A DNA stretch of 41,875 bases, taken from contig JAPPGM010000142.1 in assembly GCA_028874995.1 (NCBI GenBank), positions 1,182-43,056 on the forward strand, written 5' to 3'. The position numbers and the translations under genes were made by a program. Positions within the stretch are counted from its first letter, which is position 1; the number at the start of each line of letters is the position of its first letter. Shown one piece after another: positions 28,237 through 36,099 of the stretch. The notes under the pieces were generated by a model that did no database searches, was not told the DNA's origin, and saw nothing but the letters and a program-made list of their open reading frames with translations. This DNA comes from Gemmatimonadota bacterium. Its GTDB lineage: Bacteria > Gemmatimonadota > Gemmatimonadetes > Longimicrobiales > Gaopeijiaceae.

Positions 28237-30150
28237 ATGTCCACCGCCGACCTGACGCGGCGCGAGCGCATCCCCGTTCGCGTCCTCGACGACCACGACA
28301 GCATCGCCGCCGAAGTCGCCGGACGAATTGCGTGTCTCATCCGCGAGCGCGCGGCCGAGGGACGGAGCGCCGTGCTCGGCCTCGCCACCGGTTCCACGCC
28401 CGTCGGGGTCTACCGCGAACTCATCCGCATGCACCGCGACGAGGACCTTGACTTCGCCAACGTCGTCACCTTCAACCTCGACGAGTACTTCCCCATGCGG
28501 CCCGGCAGCCTTCACAGCTACCACCGCTACATGCGGGAACACCTCTTCGACCACGTCAACATCCCCCCCGCCCACCGCCACATCCCCCGCGGCGACCTCG
28601 ACGAGACCGACGTGGAGGCGCACTGCCGCGACTACGAGCGCCGCATCCGCGACGCGGGCGGGATCGACCTGCAGCTCCTCGGCATCGGCCGCAGCGGCCA
28701 CATCGGCTTCAACGAACCGGGTTCGGGGCGCGAATCACGCACCCGCTGCCTCTACCTCGACACCGTCACGCGCGGTGACGCCGCCGCCGACTTCTTCGGC
28801 GAGGAGAACGTACCCGCCCGTGCGATCACCATGGGGGTGGCGACCATCATGGACGCGCGCGAGGTGGTGCTTCTCGCGACCGGCGAGCACAAGGCCGAGA
28901 TCGTGGAGCGGGCCGTCGAGGGCGCGGTCCACGCCGACGTCGCGGCCACCTTCCTGCAGCAGCACCCGGCGGCCACCGTCTACCTCGATCCCCCCGCCGC
29001 CGCACAGCTTACCCGCATCCGCACGCCGTGGCTGGTCGGCGACGTGGAGTGGACGCCCCAATGGGAGAACGAAGCCGTCATCTGGCTGAGCCGCCGCACC
29101 GGCAAGCCCATCCTGCATCTGGCCACCGACGACTACCGCGAGCACCACCTCGGGTCGCTGGTGTCGCGGCACGGATCGGCGGAGCCGCTCAACGGGCAGG
29201 TCTTCAACGCGCTGATCGCCAAGATCCGCGGCAAGAGCCGTCTCCCGCGCGGCCGCAGGATGCTCGTGTTCTCGCCGCACCCCGACGACGACGTGATCTC
29301 GATGGGCGGCCTCCTGCGCAAGCTCGCCGAGAACTGCAACGACGTGACGGTCGCGTACCAGACGTCGGGCAACATCGCCGTCTTCGACCACGAGGTGCGC
29401 CGGTACCTCGACTTCATGAGGCGTGCGGCCGGGGTGGTCGACCTGGGGGACCGTGAGGCTTTGGAAGCCGTGCTGAGGTCGGTGGAAGGGGACCTCGCGC
29501 GCAAGGAACCCGGCGACGTGGACCCCGAGGTCGTACAGCATCTGAAGCGAATCATCCGCGAGAGCGAGGCGTGCGCGGGGATCGAGTCGCTGGGGCTTTC
29601 CGCCGACCGCGCCCGCTTCCTCAACCTGCCCTTCTACCAGACCGGCAAGGTCCGCAAGAATCCGGTGACCGAGGCGGATGTGGCGATCGTGCACGAGCTG
29701 CTGGAAGAGGTTCGCCCGTCGATGGTCTTCGCCGCCGGCGACCTCTCGGATCCCCACGGCACCCACCGCATGTGCCTGGAGACGGTCGAGCGGGCGCTGG
29801 AGCGCTACACCGGCGATCCGCCGTGGCTCTGGCTCTACCGCGGCGCCTGGCAGGAGTGGAGCGTGAACGACGCGACCGTCCTGGTGCCCCTTTCGGAGCA
29901 CGAGATGCGCGGGAAGGTGCAGGCGATCTTCAAGCACGAGTCGCAGAAGGACTCGGCGCCCTTCCCGGGGCCGGACGCGCGCGAATTCTGGCAGCGCGTG
30001 GTCGACCGCAACCGGGGGACGGCCGACTTCCTGGCGTCGCTGGGGCTGCCCGCCTACCGCGCCATGGAGGCGTATGTCACACTGCGCGAGGGGCGCCGGG
30101 TCGGAGCGCGCGAAATCCCCACTGCTTCGCTGGCGGAGGAGCCGGTCTGA
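28237..30150 (+). CDS. NagB-like isomerase/deaminase fused to LmbE/PIG-L deacetylase
   Basis: A 637-residue fusion. Residues about 10-290 are a glucosamine-6-phosphate deaminase-like domain: GLATGSTPVGVYRELI, FNLDEYFPM (Asp82, the general base position) and GIGRSGHIGFNEPGS. In E. coli NagB the last motif carries Asp141, His143 and Glu148. Here His155 and Glu160 are kept but the Asp is Ser153. Residues about 340-610 are an LmbE/PIG-L zinc amidohydrolase domain: SPHPDDDVISMGG (348-352) and DPHGTH. This architecture is known as a 'NagB-like' family in several phyla. A natural idea is coupled N-deacetylation and ring opening of an amino sugar, but the Ser change argues against plain NagB chemistry. 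Confidence 0.9.
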   Translation: MSTADLTRRERIPVRVLDDHDSIAAEVAGRIACLIRERAAEGRSAVLGLATGSTPVGVYRELIRMHRDEDLDFANVVTFNLDEYFPMRPGSLHSYHRYMREHLFDHVNIPPAHRHIPRGDLDETDVEAHCRDYERRIRDAGGIDLQLLGIGRSGHIGFNEPGSGRESRTRCLYLDTVTRGDAAADFFGEENVPARAITMGVATIMDAREVVLLATGEHKAEIVERAVEGAVHADVAATFLQQHPAATVYLDPPAAAQLTRIRTPWLVGDVEWTPQWENEAVIWLSRRTGKPILHLATDDYREHHLGSLVSRHGSAEPLNGQVFNALIAKIRGKSRLPRGRRMLVFSPHPDDDVISMGGLLRKLAENCNDVTVAYQTSGNIAVFDHEVRRYLDFMRRAAGVVDLGDREALEAVLRSVEGDLARKEPGDVDPEVVQHLKRIIRESEACAGIESLGLSADRARFLNLPFYQTGKVRKNPVTEADVAIVHELLEEVRPSMVFAAGDLSDPHGTHRMCLETVERALERYTGDPPWLWLYRGAWQEWSVNDATVLVPLSEHEMRGKVQAIFKHESQKDSAPFPGPDAREFWQRVVDRNRGTADFLASLGLPAYRAMEAYVTLREGRRVGAREIPTASLAEEPV

Positions 30151-30260: not shown

Positions 30261-30425
30261 ATGTACGAATGTCCGGTATGCGGCGGCGAAGTCGAGCTCC
30301 CCGCCGACCCCGTCGAAAGCGAGCTGTTCGAATGCGCCGAATGCGGTGTCGAACTGGAAATCCTGGCGCTGGATCCCCTTACCCTCGGGGAGGCCCCCGA
30401 CGCCGAAGAGGACTGGGGTGAATGA
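30261..30425 (+). CDS. lysW: amino-group carrier protein LysW
   Basis: LysW is a small acidic carrier whose C-terminal Glu gamma-carboxyl is joined to the alpha-amino group of 2-aminoadipate (lysine route) or glutamate (arginine route). It protects the substrate and presents it to later enzymes. The 54-residue product has a zinc ribbon (Cys4/Cys7 and Cys25/Cys28) and ends with the diagnostic EDWGE (Glu54). The length is normal. Its stop overlaps the lysX ATG. The gene was read directly from the sequence. Confidence 0.95.
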
Positions 30426-31258
30426 GGGTCGGGTTTCTTCATTCGCTCATCAGGAAGGACGAGAAGCTCCTCATCGCCGAGCTGCGCGGGCGCCCGGGCA
30501 TCGAACTCGTCTTCCTGGACGATCGCCGGCTCGTCTTCGATTTCCATGCGCGCCCCGAGGTGGACGTCGTGCTGGAACGCTCCATCAACCACTCGCGCGC
30601 CATGCACGCGCTCCGGCTCTTCGAGGGGGCGGGGACGCCGTGCGTCAACACGTACGAGGTGTCGCGCCGCTGCGGCGACAAGATCCTAACGGCGGCGTCG
30701 CTGGCCGAACAGGGAGTGCCGCAGCCCGAGGCGCGGGTCGCCTTCACCCCGGAGTCCGCGCTGGACGCGATCGAGGAGCTGGGCTATCCGGTGGTGCTCA
30801 AGCCGGCGGTGGGCTCCTGGGGACGCCTGCTCTCGAAGATCAACGACCGCGACGCGGCCGAGACGGTGCTCGAACACAAGTCGATCCTGGGCAGCTACCA
30901 CCACTCGATCTTCTTCGTGCAGAAGTACGTCGCGAAGGGCGGGCGCGACATCCGCAGCTTCGTGGTGGGCGACGAGTGCGTGGCCGCGATCCATCGCACG
31001 TCGGAGCACTGGATCACCAACACCGCCCGGGGTGGCCTCGCCACAAACTGCCCCATGACCCCCGAGCTCGCCGACCTCTCGCTGCGCGCGGCCCAAGCCG
31101 TCGGCGGCGGCGTCCTCGCGGTCGACCTCTTCGAGAGCGCCGACGGCCTCCTGGTCAACGAGGTGAACTACACGATGGAGTTCCGCAACAGCATCGACGT
31201 CACGGGCGTGAACATCCCGGAGCGGATCGTGACCCATCTGGAAGCGGCGGCGCGATGA
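30422..31258 (+). CDS. lysX: LysW ligase, ATP-grasp (LysX/ArgX)
   Basis: LysX uses ATP to attach 2-aminoadipate (LysX) or glutamate (ArgX) to the LysW C-terminal Glu. The ATP-grasp fold is seen in [52 protein letters not shown] and the metal-binding end [21 protein letters not shown]. The stretch [11 protein letters not shown] lies at the substrate end. The length of 278 residues matches the family. Whether it takes aminoadipate, glutamate or both cannot be told from the sequence alone. It overlaps lysW by four bases, and its stop overlaps a 36-codon mini-ORF. Confidence 0.93.
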
Positions 31259-31365
31259 TCGTCGTGCCCGATCCTTCGCTGGCGCGGACCCCGATCCGCG
31301 TGTTCGTGCCCGCGGGTCCAACCACGATCCGCGCGCGCTGCGTCCGGGGGGGAGTCCGGATATGA
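31255..31365 (+). CDS. 36-residue mini-ORF coupled between lysX and argC
   Basis: ATG 31255 overlaps the lysX stop as ATGA, and the TGA at 31363-31365 overlaps the argC ATG at 31362 in the same way. The frame fills the gap exactly. The product starts [16 protein letters not shown], is basic in its second half and matches nothing recognised. It may encode a peptide, or merely keep ribosomes moving from lysX to argC, since argC has no Shine-Dalgarno of its own apart from GGGGGGAG about ten bases before its start. Existence as a gene is uncertain. Confidence 0.4.
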
Positions 31366-32384
31366 TCCGCGTCTCCATCGCGGGCGCCTCCGGGTACGCC
31401 GGCGGCGAACTCCTGCGCCTCCTCCTCGCCCACCCCGACGCCGAGGTCCACCAGGTCACCTCCGAGCGCCTGGCGGGCAAGTACGCCCACCGCGCCCACC
31501 CCAACCTCCGCACCCTCACCCGCCTCCGCTTCCACGCGCTCGACGAACTCGACGAGTGCGACGTCCTCTTCCTGTGCCTCCCGCACGGCGAGTCCTCACG
31601 CCGCTTCGACGACCTCAGCCGGATCGCCCCCCGAATCATCGACCTCGCCTCCGACTTCCGCCTCACAGACCCCACCCAGTACGAGCGCTTTTACGCCAGC
31701 CCCCACCCGCGCCCCGACCTCCTCGACGATTTCGTCTACGGAATCGCCGAACTCAACCGGGACGCGCTCCGCACCGCGCGCCTGGTCGCCTGCGCGGGCT
31801 GCAACGCCACGGCCTCCATCCTCGCGCTCCACCCCCTCTACCGCGCAGGCGTGGCCGACTCGGCGGTGATCGAGGTCAAGGTCGGATCGAGCGAGGCCGG
31901 CAACCGGTCGACACCCGGCAGCCACCACCCCGAACGCAGCGGCGCGATGCGGTCCTACAAGCCCACCGGACACCGTCACCAGGCCGAGATCCGAGCCGCG
32001 CTCGGCGCCCCGGTCCACTTCTCGGCCACCTCGGTCGAGATGGTGCGCGGGGTCCTCGCCACCTGCCACGTCTTCCTCGACCGCGACCTCGACGACAAGG
32101 CGCTGTGGCGCATCTACCGGGACGCCTACGCGGCCGAGCCGTTCGTGCGCATCGTGAAGGAGCGCGCCGGGATCCACCGCTACCCGGACCCGAATCTCCT
32201 CTCCGGATCCAACTTCTGCGACGTGGGGTTCGAACGCGACCCGCTTGCGCGCCGCGTGGTGGTCATGAGCGCCATCGACAACCTGATGAAGGGTGCGGCC
32301 GGGCAGGCGGTGCAGGCCTTCAACGTCATGCACGGGCTGCCGGAGGCGCGCGGGCTTGAATTCCCGGGCCTGCACCCGGCCTGA
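31362..32384 (+). CDS. argC: N-acetyl-gamma-glutamyl-phosphate reductase-type enzyme (ArgC/LysY)
   Basis: Reduces the acyl phosphate on the LysW-bound substrate to the semialdehyde with NADPH. The Rossmann motif GASGYAGGELLRLL is at the N-terminus. The catalytic Cys is residue 147 in ACAGCNATAS, and the active-site His region is ...GSHHPERS. The terminal VVMSAIDNLMKGAAGQAVQAFN is typical. The 340-residue length suits the LysY/ArgC family. Placement between lysX and lysZ argues that the substrate is LysW-bound rather than N-acetylated. The annotation argC versus lysY cannot be decided from sequence. Confidence 0.93.
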   Translation: MIRVSIAGASGYAGGELLRLLLAHPDAEVHQVTSERLAGKYAHRAHPNLRTLTRLRFHALDELDECDVLFLCLPHGESSRRFDDLSRIAPRIIDLASDFRLTDPTQYERFYASPHPRPDLLDDFVYGIAELNRDALRTARLVACAGCNATASILALHPLYRAGVADSAVIEVKVGSSEAGNRSTPGSHHPERSGAMRSYKPTGHRHQAEIRAALGAPVHFSATSVEMVRGVLATCHVFLDRDLDDKALWRIYRDAYAAEPFVRIVKERAGIHRYPDPNLLSGSNFCDVGFERDPLARRVVVMSAIDNLMKGAAGQAVQAFNVMHGLPEARGLEFPGLHPA

Positions 32385-32460: not shown

Positions 32461-33111
32461 ATGTGCCGCCTGCTCTGCGTCCGCGGCCGCGCGGGTTTCC
32501 CGATGGACGAACACCTCGCCCCCTTCACCCGAATCGCCAGGGACAGCCGCGAATACCAGGGCCACGGCTGGGGCTGCGCCTGGCTCGAAGACGGCCGCTG
32601 GCGCCTCTACCACAACATCCGCCCCATCTGGGAAGACACCTGGCGCCCGTCCGGCCGCACCACCCTCCTGCTGGCCCACGCCCGCAGCGCCTTTCGCGAC
32701 GAGGGGATCCAGGTCGAGAACAACATGCCCTTCCACGACGGGGAGCGGGTGTTCATCTTCAACGGCGAGCTTCACGGCGTGCGCATCAAGGAGCGCGGAC
32801 GGATCGGGGCCGAAAAGGTGTTCAACTTCGTCAAGCGCTTCGACCGCGGGAACTTCCGCCTCGCCCTGGAGCGCGGCCTGGGCGTCATCCAGCGCCGCAC
32901 CCGCTACGTGCGCGCCATGAACCTGATCGTGGCCGGCGCCTCGCGGCGCATCCACTTCGCGACCGCCTTTCGGGAAGATCCCGGGTACTTTCAGATGCAC
33001 CGCGCGACGCTGGGCGACACCCGCGTGATCAGCTCCGAACCCTATCCGGGACCCTCGCGCGCCACGGCGGCGTGGTCCCCCATCCCCAACGGCACCGTGG
33101 CTACCTTCTGA
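32461..33111 (+). CDS. class II glutamine amidotransferase-like Ntn hydrolase in the lysW operon
   Basis: A 216-residue stand-alone class II (Ntn) amidotransferase domain. Cys2 would become the N-terminal nucleophile after Met removal. His73-Ala-Arg75 (LLAHARSAF) matches the HxR motif whose Arg binds the alpha-carboxylate of glutamine, and Asn101-Gly102 (FNGELHG) is the oxyanion site. The Asp that binds the alpha-amino group (in DTE/DSE motifs of relatives) appears replaced, with IGAEKV at residues 115-120 there. No synthase domain is attached. It sits inside the lysW operon between argC and lysZ. Standard annotation would be 'glutamine amidotransferase'. The context suggests action on a LysW gamma-glutamyl conjugate or local glutamate supply; both are inference. 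Confidence 0.85.
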   Translation: MCRLLCVRGRAGFPMDEHLAPFTRIARDSREYQGHGWGCAWLEDGRWRLYHNIRPIWEDTWRPSGRTTLLLAHARSAFRDEGIQVENNMPFHDGERVFIFNGELHGVRIKERGRIGAEKVFNFVKRFDRGNFRLALERGLGVIQRRTRYVRAMNLIVAGASRRIHFATAFREDPGYFQMHRATLGDTRVISSEPYPGPSRATAAWSPIPNGTVATF

Positions 33112-33147: not shown

Positions 33148-33939
33148 ATGCTGCTAATCAAGATCGGCGGCGGCGACGCGATCAACCTGGACGGGATCGC
33201 GCGCGACCTCTCCACCGTCGAGGGCCCGAAGGTGATCGTCCACGGAGCCAACGCCTTGCGCGACCGGCTGGCCGAGCGCCTGGGCGTCGAAAAGCGGATC
33301 CTCACCTCGGTCTCCGGCTACACGAGCGTCTACTCCGACCAGGAACTGATCGACGTGATGCTCATGTCGTACGCGGGCCTGAGGAACAAGCGCATCGTGG
33401 AGTCGTTTCAGGCGCACGGGGTCAACGCGGTCGGGCTAACCGGGCTGGACGGCGCGCTGGTCAGGGGCATGCGCAACAGGGGGATCCGCGTGCGAGAGAA
33501 CGGCAAGACGCTCATCAGGCGCGACCTTTCGGGCAAGCCGGTCACGGTGAACCGCAAGCTCCTCGGGCTGCTGCTGGACAACGAGTTCGTTCCGGTGGTG
33601 ACGGTGCCCATCATCGACGAGCGCAACACGGCCGTAAACTCGGAGAACGACGACATCGTGGCGCTGCTGAGCGCGGCGCTCGAACCCGAGCTGGTGGTGC
33701 AGCTCATCGAGGCGCCGGGGTTTCTCGAGGACGAGGGCGACCCGGGGTCGGTCGTGTCCGAAATCCCGCGAGGGGAGCTGGCGCGCCGCGAGCAGGAGGC
33801 GGCCGGACGCATGAAGCGCAAGCTGCTGGCGATCCGGCGGCTGGTGGAGTCCGGGTCGACGAAGGTGGTGATCGCGGATGGCCGCAGCGAACATCCCGTG
33901 GCGGATGTGCTGGCGGGGAAGGGGACCGTGATCGGGTGA
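33148..33939 (+). CDS. lysZ: LysW-substrate kinase (LysZ, ArgB-like)
   Basis: LysZ phosphorylates the distal carboxyl of the LysW-bound aminoadipate or glutamate. The amino-acid kinase fold is visible: LLIKIGGGDAINLDGIARDL at the N-terminus, VIVHGANALRDRLAERLG, VGLTGLDGALVRG, NEFVPVVTVPIIDERNTAVNSENDDIVALLSAAL and the terminal MKRKLLAIRRLVESGSTKVVIADGR. It has 263 residues. The short loop forms are typical of LysZ rather than classical ArgB. The start follows ACAAAGGCGG. The TGA is the first element of an AT-rich repeated spacer before lysJ. Confidence 0.92.
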   Translation: MLLIKIGGGDAINLDGIARDLSTVEGPKVIVHGANALRDRLAERLGVEKRILTSVSGYTSVYSDQELIDVMLMSYAGLRNKRIVESFQAHGVNAVGLTGLDGALVRGMRNRGIRVRENGKTLIRRDLSGKPVTVNRKLLGLLLDNEFVPVVTVPIIDERNTAVNSENDDIVALLSAALEPELVVQLIEAPGFLEDEGDPGSVVSEIPRGELARREQEAAGRMKRKLLAIRRLVESGSTKVVIADGRSEHPVADVLAGKGTVIG

Positions 33940-33983: not shown

Positions 33984-35198
33984 ATGAGCAGCCCGGAGAC
34001 GGGGGCCGGGGGAGGAAGCGCGGACCGCGCGGGCGGGGCCGGAGCAAGGTCTGCCCGCGAGGTGGAGCGGCGGTACGCGCTGGAGGTCTACCCCAAGCGC
34101 GACATCACGATCGTGAAGGGGCGGGGGGCGGAGGTGTGGGACGACCGCGGGCGCCGCTACATCGACTGCGTGGCCGGGATCGGCGTGGCGAGCGTCGGTC
34201 ACGCCAACCCGGCGGTGGCCGAAGCGGTCGCCGAGCAGGCGCGAACGCTCGTCACCTGTCCGGGAATCTTCTACAACGACACGCGCGCGCGCCTGCTGGA
34301 GAAGCTGGCCGCGATCGCGCCGGGCGGCCTCTCGCGGGGCTTCCTGTGCAACTCCGGGGCCGAGGCGGTGGAAGCGGCGATCAAGTTCGCGCGGCTCACG
34401 ACCGGGCGCACCGGCATCGTGTCCGCGATGCGCGGCTTCCACGGCCGCACCCTCGGCGCGCTGTCCGCCACGCACAAGGAGGCGTACCGGGACGTATTCA
34501 GACCTCTGGTCCCCGGCTTCTCGTTCGTCCCATTCAACAACCCGGACAAGCTGCGCCACGCGGTCGGCGACGACACCGCGGCCGTGGTGATCGAACCCGT
34601 GCAGGGCGAAGGCGGGATCCGGCCCGCCAGCGCGGAGTTCCTGGAGACGGCGCGGGAAGTATGCGGCCGGACGGGTACGCTGCTGGTCTTCGACGAGATC
34701 CAGACGGGGTTCTGCCGTACGGGGCGCATGTTCGCCTGTGAGCGCTACGGTGTGGTTCCGGACATGCTCTGCCTGGCCAAGGCAATTGCCGGGGGCGTGC
34801 CGTTGGGAGCGGTCATGGCCGACGACCGCATCCGGATACCCCCCGGCAAACACGGGACGACATACGGAGGCAACCCGCTCGCGTGTGCAGCGGCGCTGGC
34901 CGCGATCGGCTTCATGGAGCAGGAGCGGCTCGCTGAACGCGCCGAGGTGCTCGGCGCTCGCTTTCGCGAACGCTTCGAGATGGCCATGCCGAAGCGGGTG
35001 CGGGCGGTGCGCCAGGTCGGCCTGATGATCGGCGTGGAGTTGAAGGAACGAGTCCGCCTCCACATCGATGCCCTTGGCGCGGCGGGGGTGCTCACGCTGC
35101 CGGCGGGAACGACGGTGATCCGGGTGCTGCCGCCGCTGGTGATCACCGAGGAGCAGATCGACGAGGTGGTGGAGGTGATGGTGCGGGTGCTAAACTGA
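33984..35198 (+). CDS. lysJ: LysW-semialdehyde aminotransferase (LysJ/ArgD)
   Basis: A class III PLP aminotransferase that converts the LysW-bound semialdehyde to LysW-lysine or LysW-ornithine using glutamate. The PLP Lys is residue 266 ([14 protein letters not shown]), with Asp237 in [13 protein letters not shown] and the phosphate-binding [27 protein letters not shown] and [15 protein letters not shown] are also typical of the LysJ/ArgD group. It has 404 residues, about 20 more than usual at a Gly/Ala-rich N-terminus. ATG 33984 overlaps the stop of a tiny leader frame. The hydrolase that would free the product (LysK) is not encoded downstream in this window. Confidence 0.93.
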
Positions 35199-35221
35199 GC
35201 GGGGACGCAGAGGTGGGTTGA

Positions 35222-35407
35222 CTCCTGGACGCTCCGGGCAATGTTCTTCTCCCCGGCGCGGTGACCGGACTGCCCAAGGACTCGGTCGCCAACGTCACGC
35301 AGATCGTGACGCTGGACGAGGACTTGCTCGATGGCCGAACCGGCAGGATTCCACGCGGACTGATGCGCCGCGTCGAATCGGGCCTCAGGTTGGTACTGGA
35401 TCTGTAG
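35222..35407 (+). pseudogene. C-terminal remnant of a MazF/PemK-family toxin
   Basis: The frame reads LLDAPGNVLLPG, TGLPKDSVANVTQIVTLDEDLL and ends with RRVESGLRLVLDL before TAG. This is the C-terminal half of a MazF/PemK ribonuclease toxin, recognised from the GLPKDSVANVxQIVTLD block and the GLRLVLxL end. An in-frame TGA (35219-35221) lies directly upstream, and only 23 bases separate the fragment from the lysJ stop. The N-terminal half (about 50 residues) and any antitoxin gene are therefore missing. No start codon with a ribosome-binding site exists. The remainder of the 35199-35457 gap shows nothing else. Confidence 0.75.
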
Positions 35408-35457
35408 ATCCGAATGACAATCGAGCAGGACGTGTGACGAAGGCAGAAAGGTCAACA

Positions 35458-36099
35458 ATGAGAAACGGTTTTCCGACATCGGTCATGGCTATCGTCCTCG
35501 CCCTCGCGTTCGCCGGGGTGGGCGCCTGCGGAGGCTCGCCCGAAGAGGCGGCGGACTCCGGGGGCGCCGAACAGGGCGAGCAACTCGAAACCGGGGAACG
35601 AGTGGAAGGGGGCGCCGGGGAAAGTGCCGAAGAGGGAGAGGCTGGTGAACATGCCGGGGGCGGCGAACGCGGTGAGCACGATGAGGGTGGAGAGCGCGGC
35701 GAGGGCGAACACGGCGAAGGTGGCGAGGGTGGGGAGCACGCGGAAGGCGGCGAGCACGCCGAGGGTGACGAGCATGGTGAAGGTGGCGGGGAGGGTGAGG
35801 AATCGGGCGAGTACATCGGCCGCGCGGACAGTTGGGACGCCACGCGGCGCGGGATCCGGCTGAGGCTCGCCTTCGATGCCGAACGCGACGCCTTCGTTGG
35901 CACGGTCGAGAACACGACGGAAGGGACCGTGTGCGCCGTTCGGGTGGAAGTCCACCTGGCGGGTGGCCCCGAACTCGGGCCAACGGAGCGCCGGGATCTG
36001 GGGCCCGGCGAGTCGGTCGCCGTGGAGCTTTCCGCGGGTGATGAGGACTTCGAGAGCTGGACCGCCCACCCCGAGACCTCGGCCTGTGGGACCGAGTGA
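35458..36099 (+). CDS. lipoprotein with Glu/Gly/His-rich repeats
   Basis: Function not recognised. The 213-residue product has a signal peptide (PTSVMAIVLALAFAGVGAC) with lipobox GVGAC, Cys24. Residues about 30-117 are low-complexity, dominated by Glu, Gly and His, with loose repeats of GEHxEGG (for example GEHAEGGEHAEGDEHGEGG). From about residue 118 a compact beta-rich domain follows (YIGRADSWDATRRGIRLRL to the end), with VTVENTT-like phrasing GTVENTTEGTVCAVRVEVHL and two Cys that could pair. A metal-binding linker is possible given the His content. ATG 35458 follows AGGCAGAAAGG. Confidence 0.8.
   Translation: MRNGFPTSVMAIVLALAFAGVGACGGSPEEAADSGGAEQGEQLETGERVEGGAGESAEEGEAGEHAGGGERGEHDEGGERGEGEHGEGGEGGEHAEGGEHAEGDEHGEGGGEGEESGEYIGRADSWDATRRGIRLRLAFDAERDAFVGTVENTTEGTVCAVRVEVHLAGGPELGPTERRDLGPGESVAVELSAGDEDFESWTAHPETSACGTE

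Follow-up and report, generated by a model that had tools for sequence, protein, structure and literature searches.

We propose that a stand-alone glutaminase-fold protein encoded in a lysW operon of a Gemmatimonadota bacterium is the LysW-product hydrolase that takes the place of LysK and that, where needed, it also acts as a LysW deamidase. This function is likely but inferred, with no biochemistry behind it. The operon, the co-occurrence pattern with its exclusion of LysK, the conservation of residues, a predicted fold and the switching between Glu and Gln at the carrier C-terminus are shown, while every catalytic step is inferred, and hydrolysis of the LysW product is supported by the exclusion pattern only. 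The pathway step is already known; the enzyme solution proposed for it is new.

The gene, its family and its conserved residues

The window, by which we mean the whole stretch of 41,875 nucleotides that was analysed, contains an operon in the order lysW-lysX-lysY-[GAT]-lysZ-lysJ. GAT is our label for the family of the 216-aa protein encoded at 32461-33111, between lysY/argC and lysZ. All genes are on the + strand:

30261..30425, + strand: lysW, 54-aa carrier with EEDWGE at the C-terminus (NCBIfam TIGR01206, 59.7 bits, cut-off 53.2; aligned with solved LysW structures)
30422..31258, + strand: lysX/argX, ATP-grasp ligase with a GSWGR motif in the ORF (TIGR02144, 330.6 bits, cut-off 275.6)
31362..32384, + strand: lysY/argC, semialdehyde dehydrogenase (TIGR01850, 379 bits)
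32461..33111, + strand: GAT, stand-alone class II (Ntn) hydrolase of predicted glutaminase fold, 216 aa, ATG start, N-terminus MCRLLCVRG
33148..33939, + strand: lysZ, [LysW]-aminoadipate/glutamate kinase (NF010659, 240 bits, cut-off 223)
33984..35198, + strand: lysJ/argD, class III aminotransferase, final gene of the operon (TIGR00707, 436.8 bits, cut-off 410)

The five pathway neighbours of GAT were all named by NCBIfam models. LysX/ArgX loads the amino acid onto LysW, and in the window LysW we take the attachment residue to be the C-terminal Glu54. No lysK was found anywhere in the window, and none 3' of lysJ. A reading made from sequence alone had already described a class II amidotransferase-like ORF in a lysW operon with no lysK in view, which held for the window ORFs and their NCBIfam assignments. 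A chance ORF was ruled out by conservation, with orthologues in 27 of the 200 Gemmatimonadota genomes sampled and in 218 stretches confirmed in a one-genome-per-species profile scan, the best 80 of which were kept as loci. Immediately 5' of lysW, at 28237-30150, lies a gene for a 637-aa glucosamine-6-phosphate deaminase-like protein (NF002557, 886 bits), and a predicted ORF at 35218-36099 has a probable signal sequence followed by a low-complexity Gly/Glu/His-rich repeat (GEHAEGGEHAEGDEHGEGG).

Public families (NCBIfam, Pfam) cover the GAT protein poorly. The best NCBIfam model was EgtC (TIGR03442) with 41.2 bits, far under its cut-off of 218.65, and Pfam GATase_6 gave 19.9 bits, below the gathering threshold of 27; GATase_6 matched at E ≤ 0.01 in 37 of 48 family members, the best at 3.4e-05. 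By the same collections the sequence is not M20, and membership of the LysK family TIGR01902/NF003367 was not met. The possibility that GAT is an EgtC orthologue was ruled out by this score and by gene context, given that the ergothioneine context (egtB, egtD) was unmet and the immediate neighbours were lysW-pathway genes in the window and in nearly all loci.

The window protein has Cys2, Arg75, Asn101-Gly102 and IGAEKV at 115-120. Met1 followed by Cys2 at the nucleophile position was found in 48 of 48 members of alignment A2 and in all 80 loci, and Arg75 (alpha-carboxylate) and Asn101-Gly102 (oxyanion pair) were invariant in the same alignment. Arg114, Gly116, Glu118 and Arg126 were also invariant in 48 diverse members, with Arg146 and Arg151 nearly so. 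GRIG(A/G)E(K/R) was read in 80 of 80 loci; two divergent Gemmatimonadota members in alignment A1 have GATGAA instead, with the Gly retained. In a profile alignment against a typical class II amidotransferase, Gly116 faces the Asp of the TDTE motif. This is the residue known in GlmS as Asp123, which holds the alpha-amino group of the substrate. The Asp of the S/T-D-T-E motif is a feature of glutaminases acting on free glutamine, and GAT fails this criterion, with Gly116 in all members. The sequence-only reading had claimed both that Cys2, Arg75 and Asn101-Gly102 are kept and that the Asp reading a free alpha-amino group is missing, and both claims held; homologues with the Asp restored at position 116, which would have counted against it, were not found among the 80 loci or the 20 sequences of alignment A1.

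The AF2 model of GAT reached a pLDDT of 90.7 and a pTM of 0.90. Its best structural match was EgtC (Z 23.4, 2.2 Å, 197 residues; a Foldseek search was also run), followed by GlmS (Z about 20.0), and the GlmS and EgtC matches span 193-197 residues. The model thus predicts the fold of a class II glutaminase domain of the Ntn hydrolase superfamily. The comparison of net charge between GAT and LysW gave no informative pattern across the family.

Considering this fold, GAT could be a glutaminase giving local glutamate or ammonia, for LysX or for transamination by LysJ, which was the simpler alternative of the sequence-only reading. LysX and LysJ both use glutamate, and the idea is chemically possible. 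Against it, the pathway has no ammonia-consuming step, the alpha-amino group of free Gln is unblocked yet the Asp that would read it is always Gly in GAT, and exclusion with LysK is neither predicted nor explained. We regard this alternative as very unlikely.

Distribution of GAT, LysX and LysK

Among the 200 genomes of the Gemmatimonadota sample, 29 were LysX-positive (28 above cut-off and G164 barely below). GAT was found at high score in 27 of the 200 (the copy in G121 is truncated by the contig end), and all 27 fall among the 29 LysX genomes. The profile search found no GAT in any of the 171 LysX-negative genomes, in four of which the only hits were weak ones to other class II amidotransferases (E about 1e-6 to 1e-7). 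The association between GAT and LysX in this sample has a Fisher p of 2e-31, uncorrected for relatedness, and in each genome of genera g7 and g48 a full family match to LysX and a GAT gene are either both present or both absent. LysK (TIGR01902) was above cut-off in just two genomes of the sample, G013 and G198, and these are the LysX genomes without GAT. Their LysK passes the [LysW]-lysine hydrolase model above cut-off, and their operons run W-X-Y-Z-J-K, with lysK last, while the others run W-X-Y-GAT-Z-J.

Further LysX genomes were taken from a gammaproteobacterial sample (5 of 369), the KSB1 phylum (11 of 82) and a Chlorobiota-type phylum (15 of 247). GAT was present in 31 of these 31 LysX genomes, 23 of them previously unseen, and LysK was above cut-off in none. 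Taking into account that the centres of these three groups were picked for carrying GAT and that relatives are not independent, no p-value is adequate here. When the four samples were pooled, 58 of the 60 LysX genomes had GAT only, the remaining two showed the reverse, and none had both or neither. LysK above cut-off was also missing from the 47 GAT genomes of the species-level scan that were searched whole. GAT persists when split from the operon, apart from lysW-X-Y in G160 and with lysJ on another contig in G245, and its retention outside the operon suggests that the link is one of function and not of position alone. Nearly all genomes examined were MAGs. The earlier proposal that GAT is an alternative LysW-conjugate hydrolase, for which co-occurrence with absence of lysK had been suggested as a check, is supported by this pattern, the activity itself remaining inferred.

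A lysK or M20 deacylase elsewhere in the genome would have refuted that proposal. The window's own genome has four M20 proteins, the best of which scored 64 bits against LysK, where the cut-off is 163. A hidden LysK elsewhere was ruled out at this level, with none above cut-off in any GAT genome searched, including the 58 of the pooled samples. This best one resembles ArgE/DapE (against the acetylornithine deacetylase model it reached 217.7 bits, with a cut-off of 297.7), lies on a contig other than that of the operon, and might either be DapE or moonlight as LysK. As the hydrolase, GAT has one main rival left, a generic M20 protein of ArgE/DapE type in the genome. Under one version of this idea, a divergent M20 protein of ArgE/DapE type encoded elsewhere would do the job of LysK and GAT, like EgtC, would cleave some gamma-glutamyl compound unrelated to LysW. 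In its favour, EgtC is the nearest named family by both score and structure, and M20 proteins are present in most GAT genomes. Against it, the EgtC cut-off is missed by far, GAT accompanies LysX in 58 genomes and is missing wherever LysX is missing in the phylum, and the M20 matches do not follow LysX: at E 1e-15 they are lacking in five of the genus's 12 LysX genomes, and the LysX-negative G192 has two. This version seems to us very improbable.

The loci of the species-level scan belong to Gemmatimonadota, records labelled Acidobacteria, Gammaproteobacteria (SUP05/Thioglobus, Arenicellales and Acidiferrobacteraceae), 'Deltaproteobacteria'/Myxococcota, Binatota, KSB1, Caldithrix and Chlorobiota. 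The complete W-X-Y-GAT-Z-J order was found in 61 of the 80 best loci, and no lysK in any of the 80, within the fetched flanks. A plasmid search found no member of the GAT family, and a search of viral contigs found no LysX.

Versions of the operon for arginine and for lysine occur across Gemmatimonadota, Gammaproteobacteria, Binatota, KSB1 and Chlorobiota, so that GAT accompanies both products. In the Gemmatimonadota sample no ArgJ match was found in any of the 27 GAT genomes, the window's own included. This genome has LysA (455 bits), and since lysine is then available via diaminopimelate, the window operon most likely makes ornithine, for arginine; this agrees with the report that host-associated Gemmatimonadota of one order favour the LysW route to ornithine (PMC11651109). 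The lysine version is that of KSB1 and Chlorobiota-type groups, where 22 loci have a homocitrate-synthase-like gene between lysW and lysX (L246:7329-8495, L258:7656-8819 and 20 others), and LysA above cut-off is missing in some of these genomes, e.g., G708 and G877. A confounding of enzyme with product class (GAT for arginine, LysK for lysine) was ruled out on these grounds. The cluster of G245 has two lysX genes together with argG and argH.

It was also possible to see some variation in gene content. Beside the first lysX, another lysX-like gene with some 57% identity to that of the window is present at L233:8683-9645, L236:9032-9844, L237:6446-7267 and L190:6087-6947; such pairs may be separate glutamate and aminoadipate ligases serving one LysW. 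In G740 (L250:13335-17523), distant lysY-, lysZ- and lysJ-like genes (30%, 26% and 39% identity) directly follow the LysW/GAT operon and could be a classical argC/argB/argD set.

The C-terminal residue of LysW

The loading site of LysW is the gamma-carboxyl of the C-terminal Glu in the motif EDWGE (PMC10433800). In 21 of the 109 LysW C-termini read, the motif was EDWGQ, and after removal of duplicates and of two LysK-type rows it remained in 20 of 97 GAT-type carriers (~20%). The Gln codons are CAG or CAA and are followed by normal stops. On the LysX tree at least seven changes between Glu and Gln are required, some deep forks being weakly supported. The EDWGQ genes are scattered over several phyla (L239, L250, L251, L244, L099, L100, L105, L111 and others). 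The 15 LysK-type carriers checked, which come from structures of Thermus, Thermococcus and Sulfolobus, plasmids of Deinococcus, Streptomyces, Pseudalkalibacillus and Staphylococcus, the genomes G013 and G198, and Natrinema, all end in Glu and none in Gln; M20 genes adjoin most of the plasmid-borne ones. The contrast (20 of 97 against 0 of 15) has an uncorrected p of 0.04 and is thin, suggestive at most. Neither EDWGQ nor a report of LysW with a glutamine amidotransferase was found in the literature searched, which left out most subscription journals and gave an unrelated rumen review as the sole co-mention; novelty is therefore provisional. The sequence-only reading had missed the C-terminal Gln carriers, as well as the multi-phylum spread and the lysine operons beside those for arginine.

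LysX activates a gamma-carboxylate. As it needs this group, a Gln carrier should not be loadable, and some enzyme must deamidate Gln54. GAT is the obvious candidate, having a glutaminase fold that may read a gamma-glutamyl amide at a C-terminus, where the amino group is blocked; this activity is inferred and no more than possible. It could be argued that GAT is a LysW deamidase only, converting Gln54 to Glu54 before loading, and that the product is released by another hydrolase, perhaps an ArgE/DapE-like M20 protein. The recurrence of EDWGQ in GAT lineages, its absence from the LysK-type carriers checked and the presence of such an M20 protein in the window's own genome favour this. Against it, most GAT operons, including that of the window, already encode Glu54, which makes deamidation needless, yet the gene is kept in 58 of 58 genomes and excludes LysK, and no lysK-like gene was seen in the 80 GAT operon neighbourhoods. 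We consider the deamidase-only reading unlikely.

Some other carriers were unusual. Near 5961 in L123 the LysW frame overruns the usual C-terminus and ends in NATRG, unlike its close relatives, possibly because this MAG contig, of low coverage, was misassembled. In the Streptomyces plasmids L262, L264 and L266 the LysW carrier is clustered with genes for an M20 hydrolase, transketolase halves, a DegT aminotransferase and a BtrH-domain protein, and in L264 the cluster adjoins an NRPS; these seem to be specialised-metabolite pathways that use LysW.

Proposed mechanism and comparison with known systems

In the reading we prefer, GAT would be a gamma-glutamyl amidohydrolase acting on the C-terminal residue of LysW and replacing the M20 metallo-hydrolase LysK. 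After removal of Met1, Cys2 would attack the gamma-carbonyl of residue 54, ornithine (lysine in other lineages) would depart via its alpha-amino group, and water would resolve the thioester, leaving LysW-Glu54 free for the next round. Arg75 would bind the alpha-carboxylate, which is free in a C-terminal residue, and Gly116 would stand in place of the Asp that demands a free alpha-amino group, because the amino group of Glu54 is already in the chain. With EDWGQ carriers, Gln54 would be turned into Glu54 at the same site, with loss of ammonia, before LysX loads. Against the hydrolase role it must be considered that there is no biochemistry, that related genomes are not independent and that the fold model was made without LysW bound. 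A bolder reading, towards which we lean only slightly, is that of a widespread LysW arginine/lysine variant whose single Ntn hydrolase serves both for carrier maturation (EDWGQ to EDWGE) and for the release of all products. It would be a parallel to Pup/Dop that evolved independently in primary metabolism, with the metal-dependent LysK replaced in at least five phyla. Carrier maturation is its most original part, if true.

GAT would fill a missing essential step of arginine or lysine synthesis in many uncultured lineages, whose genomes annotation pipelines seeking lysK would score as having a gap, possibly as auxotrophy. If true, a metalloenzyme has here been replaced by a non-orthologous cysteine Ntn hydrolase, in which a small-molecule glutaminase fold was turned on a protein C-terminus by loss of the amino-group Asp, and LysW is the second natural small carrier, after Pup, that is made with Gln at its C-terminus and then matures through deamidation. 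The role is directly testable with two purified proteins.

By comparison with known systems, LysK/ArgE, the M20 [LysW]-lysine/[LysW]-ornithine hydrolase, shares with GAT the proposed reaction and the place in the pathway; the two differ in operon position and are unrelated in fold and chemistry (zinc M20 enzyme versus Cys Ntn hydrolase), and they never occurred together in the 60 LysX genomes. EgtC (PDB 4zfj/4zfk/4zfl) is, like GAT, a stand-alone single-domain Ntn hydrolase. The bond that EgtC cuts in the ergothioneine pathway is a gamma-glutamyl amide, as is the one at LysW Glu54. Identity is only 20%, the operon is different, and the substrate of EgtC is a small molecule while GAT is proposed to act on a protein C-terminus. 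The class II glutaminase domains of GlmS, PurF, GltB and AsnB share the Met-Cys start, the alpha-carboxylate Arg, the Asn-Gly oxyanion hole and the fold, whereas GAT has no synthase domain and has the invariant Gly116 for the amino-group Asp. In some species the Pup gene specifies a C-terminal Gln; Dop deamidates this PupQ and also cuts the Pup isopeptide bond (PMC8599861). The likeness to GAT is by analogy, Dop acting on a carrier C-terminal Gln and on an amide at the same gamma-carboxyl; Dop has a glutamine-synthetase fold with phosphate chemistry and is not homologous to GAT, which has the Ntn fold and no proteasome role.
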